Shown one piece after another: positions 11,163 to 46,846 of a DNA stretch of 64,000 nucleotides. The translations under genes were made by a program, and so were the position numbers. Source of the stretch: Cytophagaceae bacterium. GTDB taxonomy: Bacteria; Bacteroidota; Bacteroidia; Cytophagales; Flexibacteraceae. The DNA lies in contig CANGYH010000001.1 of NCBI GenBank assembly GCA_947458545.1, positions 558,001-622,000 of the forward strand, read 5' to 3'. The notes under the pieces are model-generated. The model was not told the origin of the DNA. It did no database searches and saw nothing but the letters and a program-made list of their open reading frames with translations. The stretch's first letter is position 1. Each line of letters opens with the position of its first letter.

Positions 11163-11350
11163 GGCAATTGGGCTGTGGGGCACTCCCCTAGCCTAACGTA
11201 AATATGCCACCCAAGGCGCACAAACTTACCGGAGCAGTACAAGGTTAGGCCAAAAACAGCTTACGGTTAGAAGTTTGGGTTACGTTTACGCCGAAAGAAG
11301 GATAATTAAACCAAGTAACGTAGATTAGCGCTCCATACAAGTTAGAACTG

Positions 11351-41837: not shown

Positions 41838-42002
41838 CTATTTTTTAGCAGCCTTTTTAGCCGCAGCCGCCGGTTTTTCTGCAACGGCTGGTTTGGCCGC
41901 CGCGGCGATGGCAGACGCGCTGGCGCGTTTGCGGGGCCTGCTGGCACCAAAGGTGCCCATAGAAATTTTGCCCTTTTTGCTCTTCTTGTCTCCTTTGCCC
42001 AT
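41838..42002 (-). CDS. 30S ribosomal protein bTHX
   Basis: This 54-residue, very basic protein is read from ATG 42002 (MGKGDKKSKKGKISMGTFGA, SRPRKR) to TAG 41838, with an Ala/Lys-rich tail (AEKPAAAAKKAAKK). The N-terminus matches the Thx family of small ribosomal proteins that fit in the 30S head, characteristic of Bacteroidota and Thermus. A TAGCTTTC promoter-like element lies upstream, and a terminator follows. It is short and easily missed by ORF callers. Confidence 0.88.
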   Translation of the reverse strand: MGKGDKKSKKGKISMGTFGASRPRKRASASAIAAAAKPAVAEKPAAAAKKAAKK

Positions 42003-42100: not shown

Positions 42101-43012
42101 CTACTCGGCCATGAGCTTGGCCGACGGCATACTCTCTAAGTACTCCATAAACTCGCGTACACCTGCCAGCGCCTTGTAGTTGGGGCTTTTGGGCAATTGC
42201 AGCGTGGGGTCAGAGAAGAGGCTGCCACCGACAACGACCAACCCGTAGGCGTTTTCTTTTATCAACCGATGAAGGTAAACCTCGGTCGCCTCGCGCCCTG
42301 CATGGATGTTGAAGATGCCGAAGACGTAATCTGGTTGTACGACCTTAACCACGGTGAGCACATCATCTACGGGTAGGCTTTGGCCCAGATAGAGCACGGA
42401 GTGGTTACGAGACTTGAGCAGGTAATAGGCAAAAAGCAGGCCCAGCTCGTGCATCTCCCCCTCGGGTAAAAAGAGGATGAACTTACGCGTACGTTCCGTG
42501 GCCACCACCGAGCAGCGGTCTATGGCCACGATCATCTTTTGGCGGATGAGGTTGGTGATGAAATGCTCTTGCGCTGGGTTGATGGCCCCTGTCTGCCATA
42601 AAATGCCGATGCGCGTCAAAAACGGATAGACCACGTCTAGCATGGTCCGCTCTAGGCCGATGCGGTCTATGTTTGACGACATCACACGGTCGAACCGGGC
42701 CTCGTCCATGTCCACCATGGCCAGGCATAGGCTCTGGATTTGGTCTGGGTAATGGCAGTACTCCTGGCTCAGGCGCTGTACTTCGGCCTGCATCTCCTCG
42801 CGCGTCATGCGGCTGATTTTGGAGATGCGGTAGCCATGGTCGTTCAATACGCTGATATTGAGCAGCAGCTTAAGGTCGTCGTTGTCGTAAAAGCGGATGT
42901 TGGTGGGCGTACGCTTGGGGTTGAGCAACTCGTAGCGTTGCTCCCAGATGCGCAGCGTATGCGCCTTGATGCCAGAGAGGTGCTCAAGGTCTTTGATGGA
43001 ATACTGGCTCAC
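42101..43012 (-). CDS. CarH-type B12-binding MerR regulator (putative photoreceptor)
   Basis: The 303-residue protein has an N-terminal MerR helix-turn-helix (YSIKDLEHLSGIKAHTLRIW, residues 4-23), a helical B12-cap domain, and a C-terminal Rossmann-like cobalamin domain (about 175-295). The Wx9EH motif is intact (W139, E149, H150). The lower-ligand motif ExHxxG is also intact (E186, H188, G191). In CarH proteins, adenosylcobalamin bound this way keeps the tetramer on DNA in the dark, and light breaks the Co-C bond and derepresses carotenoid genes. The gene overlaps crtZ by four bases (ATGA), so it probably regulates the carotenoid genes it is transcribed with. Confidence 0.85.
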   Translation of the reverse strand: MSQYSIKDLEHLSGIKAHTLRIWEQRYELLNPKRTPTNIRFYDNDDLKLLLNISVLNDHGYRISKISRMTREEMQAEVQRLSQEYCHYPDQIQSLCLAMVDMDEARFDRVMSSNIDRIGLERTMLDVVYPFLTRIGILWQTGAINPAQEHFITNLIRQKMIVAIDRCSVVATERTRKFILFLPEGEMHELGLLFAYYLLKSRNHSVLYLGQSLPVDDVLTVVKVVQPDYVFGIFNIHAGREATEVYLHRLIKENAYGLVVVGGSLFSDPTLQLPKSPNYKALAGVREFMEYLESMPSAKLMAE

Positions 43013-43476
43013 GATTTCTTCTCCTCTATGCTTTCAAAAACAGACTTGCGCACAAACAGCAGACCAAACGAGCGGCTAGGCTGTTTGGCCAGATAACGAT
43101 GGTGGATTTTATGTGCCCGCCGGATACGCCCGAATAAAGGCAACCTGCTCCAGAAGCGGCTCTTTATGCGGTTGTGGATGGCAACGTCGTGCAGAACGAA
43201 GTAAACCATGCCATATGCCGTAACGCCCAGGCCCACGCCAGCCAGGGCGTAGTTGCCGCTTGCCAGCCCCAGGTAAATGGCCAATGCTGCCGAGCCGCCG
43301 AAGATGAGCGAGAACACATCGTTCCACTCAAAAAAACTCTTGCTGTGCTGGTGATGCGTCTTGTGGATATGCCACAAAGGGCCGTGCATCACATATTTAT
43401 GAAAAGCCCAGCTAAAGGCCTCCATGCCAAAAAAACCGACTATGGCCAGGCTAAACAGTTGGGTGGTGGCGCTCAT
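43009..43476 (-). CDS. crtZ: Beta-carotene hydroxylase CrtZ
   Basis: This 155-residue membrane di-iron hydroxylase adds a 3-hydroxyl to beta-ionone rings. All the histidine clusters are visible: FHKYVMHG, IHKTHHQHS, VAIHNR, and AHKIHHRY. Four hydrophobic segments surround them. It is followed immediately by the CarH-type regulator, and the cruF-like gene lies 72 bases upstream. Confidence 0.93.
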   Translation of the reverse strand: MSATTQLFSLAIVGFFGMEAFSWAFHKYVMHGPLWHIHKTHHQHSKSFFEWNDVFSLIFGGSAALAIYLGLASGNYALAGVGLGVTAYGMVYFVLHDVAIHNRIKSRFWSRLPLFGRIRRAHKIHHRYLAKQPSRSFGLLFVRKSVFESIEEKKS

Positions 43477-43496
43477 GGTTGATAGTGCAAAAACTT

Positions 43497-43534
43497 AGGT
43501 TTTCCGGGAAAGGTTTTAACGTAGTTGGAAACCT
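43497..43534 (-). promoter_or_regulatory. AGGTTTT repeats upstream of crtZ
   Basis: The leader between cruF and crtZ holds AGGTTTT twice in direct orientation (43497-43503 and 43511-43517) and an inverted copy AAACCT near 43529-43534. It is a plausible operator for the MerR-type regulator, but a match to a known CarH site cannot be confirmed by eye. Confidence 0.3.
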
Positions 43535-43548
43535 GTGCAGACAAAAAA

Positions 43549-44247
43549 TTACATGTCGGCAAACACAAACCAGCTCAGCACGAAGAAGAACCCAAACTGA
43601 CACCACCACACAACGGCAGCAAGCGGATTGTGGGCCGGTGGCAATAGCTTTAGCCTAAGCCACAACACGGGCAGGCCGGTTAGCCACCAGCCCAAAAAGT
43701 TTTGGCCGGGCACATAGCCTCCAGGCCAGTGCCAGAAACCAAGGCCACGGGCGGCAGGCTCCATGCAGGCATCAAAACCTACCAGCAGCAAGGCACCCAG
43801 GGCCACCTTGGCGGCCATAGGCTGGGCAAGGTGCCGCACCATGCCTCCGGCGCAATAGCCCAGCACGGCCCAGTTGATGCCTATGAGCAAAGGCACCTCC
43901 AGCACCTTGGGCCCCAAGACATTGCCATAGTAGTAAGTACCAAACAGCCAGCCCTGGGCTACGCCCAACGCCTCGGCTAAGAGGGATATTATGGCTGCAG
44001 CAGCCACATAAAGGGCCAGTTTGAGCTTGGCATCTGGATGGGCGCTTAACAGCAGGAGGCTAACCAAAACCAGGTGTACTGGCGTTAGGGCCAGCATCAG
44101 CGGGCGGGTGGGGGCGTAGCTTATGCCAGCCAGGCCCACCAAATGCAGCAATACGACGACCCCTGCCGGCAGGCGGTGCCCAGAGCTTAAAGCCAGGCGA
44201 CCGAGACGCTCTGCCGGGTTGCGCTCCTGAAGCGTTACCTTTGACAT
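43549..44247 (-). CDS. cruF: CruF-type carotenoid 1',2'-hydratase
   Basis: The 232-residue membrane protein has about seven hydrophobic segments and the signatures FGTYYYGNVLGPKVLEVPLL, GINWAVLGYCAGGM and GFWHWPGGYVPGQNFLGWW of the COG2324/CruF family. CruF adds water to the linear end of gamma-carotene- or lycopene-type molecules. Together with crtZ this points to monocyclic hydroxylated carotenoids. The start is ATG 44247, shared within 3 bases of a plus-strand ATG (44246). The true ftsK start is 44258, so the divergent genes are separated by about 10 bases. Confidence 0.8.
   Translation of the reverse strand: MSKVTLQERNPAERLGRLALSSGHRLPAGVVVLLHLVGLAGISYAPTRPLMLALTPVHLVLVSLLLLSAHPDAKLKLALYVAAAAIISLLAEALGVAQGWLFGTYYYGNVLGPKVLEVPLLIGINWAVLGYCAGGMVRHLAQPMAAKVALGALLLVGFDACMEPAARGLGFWHWPGGYVPGQNFLGWWLTGLPVLWLRLKLLPPAHNPLAAVVWWCQFGFFFVLSWFVFADM
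44236..44243 (+). promoter_or_regulatory. ftsK promoter inside the cruF coding region (TACCTTTG)
   Basis: An exact TAnnTTTG is positioned so that transcription would begin near 44250. It supports ATG 44258 as the ftsK start and excludes ATG 44246. Confidence 0.55.
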
Positions 44248-44257
44248 GAGAGGAGAA

Positions 44258-46846
44258 ATGGCTGCCCAAAATACGTTTAAAAGCAAGGCAACGGTAGAAC
44301 CAACCGCGCAAAGAACCGCAAGGTTTAAGCTGCCCGAGCTAAAGTTAGGCCAATGGATGGCAGACCGAAGGGTGCAAGTTGTGGCTGGCATCGGGCTCGT
44401 TTTCTTGTCTTTCTTTTTGTTGGTTTCATTTGTAAGCCATGTCTTTACCGGCCGGGCAGACCAGAGCGTTCTGCATGCAGAAGAAGATTTGACCCTACGT
44501 CAAGCCGGGCAAGAAGCCGAAAACTGGATGGGCTTTGCCGGTGCCTGGGTGAGCGACCTGGCCATGTACCAAGGCTTTGGGGTGGGTGCGCTGCTGCTGC
44601 CCTTTTTGGTGTTTGCCCTGGGCTACCGCATCATTTTTGGCCGAAACGTACTTATGGGCAAAAAGGGCCGCGGCAGGGCCCTGATTTTTATCTGCCTTTG
44701 GACAAGCATTCTGCTGGGGCAGTTCATTCTGAGCTTTGGCCTGGAGCAGAAATACGGCTGGCTATCAGGAGCTGTAGGCTATGAGCTGACGTCTATCGTT
44801 TACGAAATGCTGGGCTGGGGTGCATGGTTAGTTATCGCGCTGGCGGCCGTTGTTTTTGTGGTGTTTTACTTTAACGCCACCTCGCTAGGCCAAGTAAAAA
44901 AAGAGGTTCGTGCTGATGTAGCCAGCCTAACGGCCCAAAGCAGGCTGGAGGCCGAAATGGCACACCAGATGGAACAAGCCGAGCGTACGGCACCTGCCAA
45001 CAAGGGCAAAACACCTGTGGCCGCAACGCTAGACGATGCCCTTGCTGATGAGGAAGAACCAGAAGACGAATCGGGCCTGGCAGACGTGCCGATCACCTTC
45101 GAGCTAAAGGTTAATGGGGCTACGGTGCCGTCTCCCTTTACGCCTGCGCCGCCAACCCCTAAGGCCATGCCTGCCGAGCCCATGCAGGCCAAAGGCGAGC
45201 CGACCTTCGAAATACTGACGCCTGTGGCCGAGCCCGTGAGCGCCGCTCCGGCGCCGCCGATGTCGGCCAACGGCACGTACCTCGTGTCTGACGAAGCCAA
45301 CGCAGAGGCCTTGGTGGCCAAAGCCGGCTTTTACGACCCTACGCTAGATCTGGCTACGTACCGCTATCCGGTGCTAGACCTGTTGGAAGACCATGGCCGC
45401 GGCAATATTCTGGTAGATCAGGCGGAGCTGGAATCTAACAAAGACACCATCATCACCACGCTGAAGCAATTTGGCATTGGTATCGCCTCTATTGCGGCCA
45501 CACCGGGGCCTACAGTAACGCTGTACGAAATCGTACCCGAGGCCGGCGTGCGCATCTCTAAAATTCGCGGACTGGAGGACGACATCGCCCTGAGCCTTGC
45601 CGCACTTGGCATACGGATGATTGCCCCTATGCCAGGCAAAGGCACCATCGGCATAGAGGTGCCCAACAAAAAGCGCGAGGTGGTAAGCTGCCGGTCTGTG
45701 CTTGAGACGGAGCGCTTTAAGCGCACGGATATGGCCCTGCCCATTGCGCTTGGCCGCACCATCAGCAACGAGGTCTTTATAACAGACCTGGCCAAGATGC
45801 CCCACCTGCTTGTGGCGGGCGCTACGGGCCAGGGTAAATCAGTAGGGCTTAATGTAATCCTGGCCTCGCTGCTGTACAAGAAGCACCCGAGCCAGTTGAA
45901 GTTTGTGATGGTGGACCCGAAGAAGGTCGAGCTATCGCTCTTTTCGGCCATCGAGCGGCACTTTCTGGCCAAGCTGCCCAATGCAGAAGAGGCCATCATC
46001 ACCGACACCAAAAAGGTAGTCTCGACGCTGAACTCGCTGGTGATTTTGATGGAGCAGCGATACGAGCTGCTGAAAGACGCGGGCATGAAACAGATCCGCG
46101 AGTACAACCAGACGTTTACCGAGCGCAAACTAAACCCAGAGCGGGGGCACCACTACATGCCCTACATCGTACTGGTGATAGACGAGCTGGCCGACCTGAT
46201 GATGACGGCCGGCAAAGAGGTAGAAGGCCCCATTGCGCGCCTGGCGCAGTTGGCGCGTGCGGTAGGCATCCACTTGGTGCTGGCCACGCAGCGCCCGTCG
46301 GTAAACGTTATCACGGGCTTAATCAAGGCCAACTTTCCGGCGCGGCTGGCTTTCAGGGTTATCTCTAAAATAGACAGCCGCACCATTCTGGATGCCAACG
46401 GGGCAGACCAGCTCATCGGCTACGGAGATATGCTCTTTATGCAGGGCTCAGAGCTTACGCGCTTGCAGTGTCCGTTTATTGATACGCCCGAGGTTACGCG
46501 CCTGTGTCAGTTTATCGGAGAGCAGCGAGGCTATCCGAGCGCATTCATGCTACCGGAGTACATCAGCGACGGTGAGCTAGACGATATTGAGGATATCGAC
46601 CTAAGCAACCGAGACAAGATGTTTGACGATGCTGCCCGCTGCCTGGTGCAGTATCAGCAGGGCTCAACGTCTCTGTTGCAGCGCAAGCTCAAACTGGGCT
46701 ATGCGCGCGCGGGCCGCGTGATGGATCAACTTGAGGCCGCAGGCATTGTCGGGCCTTTTGAGGGCTCTAAACCCAGAGAGGTGATGTACCGAGACCTGGC
46801 ATCGCTAGAGCAATACCTGAACCAGTTGAACGATATGCGGTCTTAG
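44258..46846 (+). CDS. ftsK: DNA translocase FtsK
   Basis: The 862-residue septal DNA pump has four N-terminal membrane helices (first VVAGIGLVFLSFFLLVSFVS), an Ala/Glu/Pro-rich linker (about 210-345), and a RecA-like motor with Walker A GATGQGKS (about residue 522) and Walker B VLVIDELADLMM. The C-terminal gamma domain (STSLLQRKLKLGYARAGRVM, QLEAAGIVGPF) recognises chromosome-orienting sequences. The linker is short compared with E. coli. Downstream, a LolA-like gene follows after 32 bases. Confidence 0.96.
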   Translation: MAAQNTFKSKATVEPTAQRTARFKLPELKLGQWMADRRVQVVAGIGLVFLSFFLLVSFVSHVFTGRADQSVLHAEEDLTLRQAGQEAENWMGFAGAWVSDLAMYQGFGVGALLLPFLVFALGYRIIFGRNVLMGKKGRGRALIFICLWTSILLGQFILSFGLEQKYGWLSGAVGYELTSIVYEMLGWGAWLVIALAAVVFVVFYFNATSLGQVKKEVRADVASLTAQSRLEAEMAHQMEQAERTAPANKGKTPVAATLDDALADEEEPEDESGLADVPITFELKVNGATVPSPFTPAPPTPKAMPAEPMQAKGEPTFEILTPVAEPVSAAPAPPMSANGTYLVSDEANAEALVAKAGFYDPTLDLATYRYPVLDLLEDHGRGNILVDQAELESNKDTIITTLKQFGIGIASIAATPGPTVTLYEIVPEAGVRISKIRGLEDDIALSLAALGIRMIAPMPGKGTIGIEVPNKKREVVSCRSVLETERFKRTDMALPIALGRTISNEVFITDLAKMPHLLVAGATGQGKSVGLNVILASLLYKKHPSQLKFVMVDPKKVELSLFSAIERHFLAKLPNAEEAIITDTKKVVSTLNSLVILMEQRYELLKDAGMKQIREYNQTFTERKLNPERGHHYMPYIVLVIDELADLMMTAGKEVEGPIARLAQLARAVGIHLVLATQRPSVNVITGLIKANFPARLAFRVISKIDSRTILDANGADQLIGYGDMLFMQGSELTRLQCPFIDTPEVTRLCQFIGEQRGYPSAFMLPEYISDGELDDIEDIDLSNRDKMFDDAARCLVQYQQGSTSLLQRKLKLGYARAGRVMDQLEAAGIVGPFEGSKPREVMYRDLASLEQYLNQLNDMRS
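44267..44273 (-). promoter_or_regulatory. Candidate cruF promoter inside ftsK (TATTTTG)
   Basis: A minus-strand TAnTTTG, one base shorter than consensus, lies about 20 bases upstream of the cruF ATG and within the first codons of ftsK. Confidence 0.3.

Follow-up and report, generated by a model that had tools for sequence, protein, structure and literature searches.

A gene for a probable CarH-like cobalamin photoreceptor and a candidate dyad operator at a remote ECF sigma factor-carotenoid operon in a Cytophagaceae bacterium

The stretch of Cytophagaceae bacterium DNA analysed here (64,000 nucleotides, referred to as the window) encodes a MerR-family regulator that probably acts, with adenosylcobalamin (AdoCbl), as a dark repressor of a remote operon in which an ECF sigma factor gene precedes the carotenoid genes, in a circuit resembling LitR-LitS. 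The assignment of the regulator as a cobalamin photoreceptor tied to carotenoid synthesis, which had been put forward from the window sequence in the original prediction, is supported, in a CarH-like (class I LitR-like) form, by its sequence, its predicted fold and its gene context. The residues, fold and gene order, together with a dyad that is unique in this genome and associated with carH, were established by computation; cobalamin binding, photochemistry, DNA binding, repression and the sigma factor targets are what we infer.

The split carotenoid cluster

The regulator gene (42101..43012, minus strand) begins at a GTG codon and encodes a 303 aa protein with a MerR helix-turn-helix, a four-helix B12 domain and a Rossmann B12 domain. 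It is the last of three genes that read cruF-like, crtZ, regulator on the minus strand, and the crtZ stop codon and the regulator start codon have four bases in common (43009-43012), as the original prediction had it. In Pfam profile searches the regulator exceeded the cut-offs for MerR_1 (59.5 bits) and B12-binding_2 (43.4 bits), and its Rossmann domain matched B12-binding (PF02310) more weakly, at 21.6 bits versus a cut-off of 32.1. The crtZ gene (43009..43476, minus strand) is of the beta-carotene hydroxylase type; its product had no match to Pfam and NCBIfam profiles at E≤0.001, and its identity is based on its histidine boxes (HKYVMHGPLWHIHKTHH and HKIHH) and on its homologs in the crt clusters of relatives. 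The cruF-like gene (43549..44247, minus strand, with the start judged by alignment) matched PF04240 at 96 bits, confirming the CruF-type enzyme that had been proposed. The cruF start at 44247 (minus strand) and the probable ftsK start at 44258 (plus strand, following AGGAG) are divergent, with their start codons ~10 bp apart (window 44245-44260), so that each promoter should fall within the coding sequence of the other gene. Downstream of the regulator gene, a small basic open reading frame (MGKGDKKSKKGKISMGTFGASRPRKR...) is found at 41838-42002 (minus strand), followed by a possible terminator; its product may be a small ribosomal protein of the THX type.

The 3.23 Mb genome contains a single carH-type gene. 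Its sole phytoene synthase gene is located 0.83 Mb from carH, in an operon of the order ECF sigma-crtI-crtB-lycopene cyclase (crtYcd)-ispH (locus L032). In Algoriphagus and many other Cytophagales, these genes form one unbroken cluster, cruF-crtZ-carH-ECF-crtI-crtB-crtYcd-ispH, which indicates that the window carries one half of a cluster that is split in this genome. The upstream neighbor of carH in relatives is most commonly cruF and frequently crtZ. In most relatives the gap between the ECF gene and crtI is only 0-25 bp, and a search for an ECF-type promoter motif before crtI in these relatives yielded none that could be derived, the two genes being nearly contiguous. Pairs of carH and ECF genes that have no nearby crt genes were also observed (L110, L120, L121, L125 and L128), and dyads are present at most of them.

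A candidate operator before the ECF gene

Comparative footprinting of the regions upstream of the ECF genes revealed a common dyad, TGTTTAA-N16-TTAAACA. With as many as two mismatches allowed, 33 of 39 such regions contain it, the one of this genome included, compared to a mean of 0.56 and a maximum of 2 in shuffled sequences; because the pattern was first spotted on part of the same sequences, this count is descriptive, and the genome-wide scans serve as the independent checks. In this genome the dyad reads TGTTTAG-N16-TTAAACA and lies at G000:C1:1435215-1435244, 22 bp upstream of the start codon of the ECF gene. Its 13-base core, TGTTTA-N17-TTAAACA, has exactly one perfect match in the 3.23 Mb genome, at the ECF-crt promoter, and the reversed-pattern control has none; core matches with one mismatch elsewhere in this genome mostly fall within long open reading frames and were taken as chance. 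Across 100 loci (1.83 Mb in total, some of them overlapping), dyads matching with no more than one mismatch are concentrated before ECF, carH, cruF, crtZ or ispH genes, against 3 matches in the reversed-sequence control. The dyad was found upstream of 37 of the 50 ECF genes identified in 59 genomes; the other 13 orthologs have no dyad within 200 bp, which counts against the remote-operon reading.

The half-site TAAACA agrees with the half-site TnnACA of known CarH operators. Those operators are tandem 11-bp direct repeats, whereas the arrangement here is a dyad, often doubled, with a usual distance of 44 bp between the two copies. The element TAnnTTTG, which we take to be the Bacteroidota -7 box, accompanies the promoter-proximal dyad, within or beside its spacer, in 41 of the 68 regions that carry a dyad (pooled sets in which some sequences are shared). 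The corresponding -7 element of the ECF promoter in this genome (TTAATTTG) is weaker than in the relatives, and this counts against the reading that we prefer.

The original prediction named crtZ and cruF as the direct targets of the regulator, with negative feedback arising from cotranscription, and proposed a search for cognate sites upstream of both genes. At up to three mismatches, this search detected no copy of the dyad near cruF, crtZ or carH, either in the cruF-crtZ intergenic region (43477..43548, minus strand) or upstream of cruF within the 5' part of ftsK (44248..44560, minus strand), and the sole exact match to its core stands before the distant ECF-crtI-crtB-crtYcd-ispH operon. 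Elsewhere in the window, three-mismatch matches at 11283, 17855 and 22302 are far from the cluster, and no plausible site is located near cruF, crtZ, carH or the SSF gene. Direct control of the cruF-crtZ-carH operon by its own regulator, with local negative feedback, is thus unlikely, even though the four-base overlap with crtZ implies cotranscription and relatives do have dyads before carH, cruF-carH or crtZ-carH (L047, L057, L075, L088, L105, L112, L120, L123 and L125). Lacking a dyad at its own genes, the sensor probably does not regulate its own expression through this element; local feedback may operate through another type of site.

Under the remote-repressor model, AdoCbl would be bound in the dark between W139, E149 and H150 in the helical bundle and the Rossmann-domain residue H188, and the holo-protein on the ECF-proximal dyad would block RNA polymerase at the ECF-crtI-crtB-crtYcd-ispH operon. 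Green or blue light would break the Co-C bond and dislodge the repressor, allowing the operon to be transcribed, and the ECF factor may then relay the signal to further promoters in the manner of LitS in Streptomyces. We favor repression because the dyad overlies the -7 region and because this is the known mode of CarH. An alternative is that the protein activates the ECF promoter in the light, in the classical MerR manner, with the dyad placed between the promoter elements; its MerR-type helix-turn-helix, the coverage of both the spacer and the -7 element by the proximal dyad, and the description of LitR as promoting litS transcription in the light would all be compatible with such a role. 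This appears improbable, as the characterised CarH proteins are dark repressors and the downstream half-site sits past the -7 element, where a bound protein would obstruct the polymerase.

Conserved residues and fold of the regulator

Both cobalamin motifs named in the original prediction are retained at the residues given there. In a column-by-column alignment with Thermus CarH, W139, E149 and H150 of the Wx9EH motif (codons at 42563..42598, minus strand) correspond to W131, E141 and H142 in the four-helix bundle, and the lower axial ligand motif D/ExHx2G/P is matched by E186-M-H188-E-L-G191 (ExHxxG codons at 42440..42457, minus strand). The published signature of light-responsive cobalamin domains consists of GxxW, EH, GxxH and GxxxP, and it is complete in the regulator as G136-W139, E149-H150, G185-H188 and G210-P214. 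The recognition helix reads RIWEQRY, of the RxWERRY type, and none of the 103 relatives departs from its R21, W23, E24 and R26. W139 and E186 are likewise unchanged in all 103, with E149 conserved in 100, H150 in 101 and H188 in 98; this conservation rules out that the motif set matches by chance.

All of the key residues are retained in 98 of the 103 relatives. In the remaining five, all from Saprospiraceae-type contigs (L111, L115, L124, L129 and L130), H188 and one of E149/H150 have been lost together; judged by marker genes, these homologs have no carotenoid neighbors, and they have no dyad at one mismatch. From sequence, they are probable B12-independent derivatives. The original prediction held that many Bacteroidota homologs have lost B12 binding: such losses do occur in the phylum, yet at five in 103 they are rare among these close relatives.

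By sequence, the closest solved structures are those of Thermus CarH, and matches to CtMerR and to a photocobilin-type protein were also obtained. When folds were compared, full-length Thermus CarH gave the top matches to the predicted structure (mean pLDDT 87), followed by CtMerR. Thermus thermophilus CarH (PDB 5c8d, 5c8e) resembles the regulator in domain order, the Wx9EH and ExHxxG motifs, the RxWE(Q/R)RY recognition helix, fold and the link to carotenoids. The regulator differs from it in having Q140 in place of His132, in the loss of the nucleotide-tail motif SxT, at Arg176 and Asp201, and at both interface Gly positions; Arg176, Asp201 and the interface Gly sites matter for assembly of Thermus CarH. 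Gln is present at the His132 position in 62 of the 103 relatives. The SxT motif is replaced by IFN (233-235) with the GG (262-263) retained, and the Ser of SxT is missing in nearly all relatives as well (V/I/A-x-T). Because of Q140 and IFN, ligation in the light state and binding of the nucleotide tail may not be the same as in Thermus CarH. The regulator also scored 100.8 bits against the NCBIfam equivalog TransRegCarH, below its cut-off of 400, which counts against the name CarH; because of this score and the SxT deviation, we call the protein a CarH-like Bacteroidota form and not CarH proper. Chloracidobacterium CtMerR (PDB 8jbs) shares the signature in its B12 light-sensing domain and likewise lacks a His at the position of His132, but it is 21% identical to the regulator over the matched fold and is not known to be linked to an ECF-crt operon.

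The substitutions Q140 and IFN, together with the five Saprospiraceae-type homologs that demonstrate loss of H188 and of one EH residue within the phylum, could be taken to indicate a CarA-like carotenoid regulator that binds DNA without cobalamin, no longer senses light through B12 and answers to another signal. This is quite improbable given that all of the signature residues are present, that the Trp of Wx9EH, lost in Myxococcus CarA, is retained, and that the His132 position varies among proven photoreceptors, being Gln in the light-responsive SasPcob and Arg in CtMerR. A supply of AdoCbl for the favored B12-dependent repressor is plausible, since genes for a cob(I)alamin adenosyltransferase and for other B12-binding proteins are present in the genome.

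Association of the dyad with carH and ECF genes

In many relatives the photosensor gene is adjacent to the ECF sigma factor gene, and the two are linked further by the common dyad at ECF promoters and by their co-occurrence. Among the 59 genomes, carH and the ECF gene are often on separate contigs or far apart, and the dyad remains with the ECF gene. Among crtB-bearing genomes the ECF gene tracks carH (46/3 versus 1/4, Fisher p = 0.0005, in a hand-compiled table that ignores phylogeny), and the sole exception in this table, G041, is 84% complete. Where crtI-crtB follow carH with no ECF gene (G020, G025 and contig 46 of G024), the dyad is found before crtI or carH; in G024 a second carH is followed by a partial ECF-like open reading frame with dyads (L236). 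With one mismatch allowed, no dyad was detected at the crt clusters in four genomes without carH; a two-mismatch match at one of these clusters (L239) is 2.4 kb away. As an association observed in sequence, this pattern points to CarH as the protein that binds the dyad. That the dyad belongs to a different transcription factor, with CarH acting elsewhere, is very unlikely: some dyads do precede genes of no obvious role in light (fasciclin, DUF4397), but dyads also occur at carH promoters with no ECF gene nearby (L047, L057, L088 and L105), they shift to crtI or carH when an ECF gene is missing from the crt operon, and they are absent at up to one mismatch from the crt clusters of carH-lacking genomes.

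A proposed wider regulon and comparison with known systems

The dyad is likely to mark a Cytophagales-wide light regulon, in which CarH-like B12 photoreceptors would govern the ECF gene and carotenoid operon and, in several genera, genes for rhodopsin, photolyase, a CrtD-like desaturase and a divergent pterin enzyme. Dyads with at most one mismatch precede microbial rhodopsin genes in eight carH-bearing genomes, and the rhodopsin genes of three carH-lacking genomes have no dyad at up to two mismatches (0/3). Other dyads in relatives precede a photolyase gene, a flavin reductase/TetR pair, fasciclin and DUF4397 genes, and CrtD-like desaturase genes with divergent 6-pyruvoyl-tetrahydropterin synthase genes. 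The placement of the dyad before both rhodopsin and photolyase genes suggests a light-response system common to the group. In the present genome, the region upstream of the rhodopsin gene (G000:C2:37007-37672, L276) has no dyad at up to three mismatches, only a single TTAAACA half-site. If the proposed regulon is correct, a B12 sensor responding to green light would control rhodopsin expression in these relatives.

Several characterised systems resemble parts of this arrangement. The LitR-LitS pair of Streptomyces coelicolor likewise links a MerR-family B12 photosensor to an ECF sigma factor gene and to carotenoid synthesis; as far as the description of that system allows the comparison, the present case differs in that the crt operon directly follows the ECF gene, 0.83 Mb from the sensor gene. 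The regulon of the Pseudomonas class II LitR proteins (PplR/PmlR), with its photolyase, pterin/folate and flavin enzyme genes, resembles the dyad-linked genes of the Cytophagales, but proteins of this class have no Rossmann B12 domain and act together with a LOV protein. Within the Bacteroidota, light-induced pigmentation has been reported, for example in Chryseobacterium lacus, with no proven sensor, and the myxol gene cluster of Nonlabens begins with an uncharacterised MerR-family gene. A search of the open-access literature found no Bacteroidota CarH operator, ECF target or CarH control of rhodopsin; in that literature the dyad operator, the regulon, the ECF target and the rhodopsin link appear to be undescribed. 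The candidate operator, the sigma factor target and the rhodopsin-containing candidate regulon make the question directly testable, and a dyad-type operator would be an addition to a photoreceptor family that is used in optogenetics. Rhodopsin genes stand immediately downstream of a dyad with at most one mismatch at L242, L246, L256, L265, L274, L275, L278 and L279, and exact dyads adjoin fasciclin and DUF4397 genes in several families (L244, L245, L247, L254 and L259).
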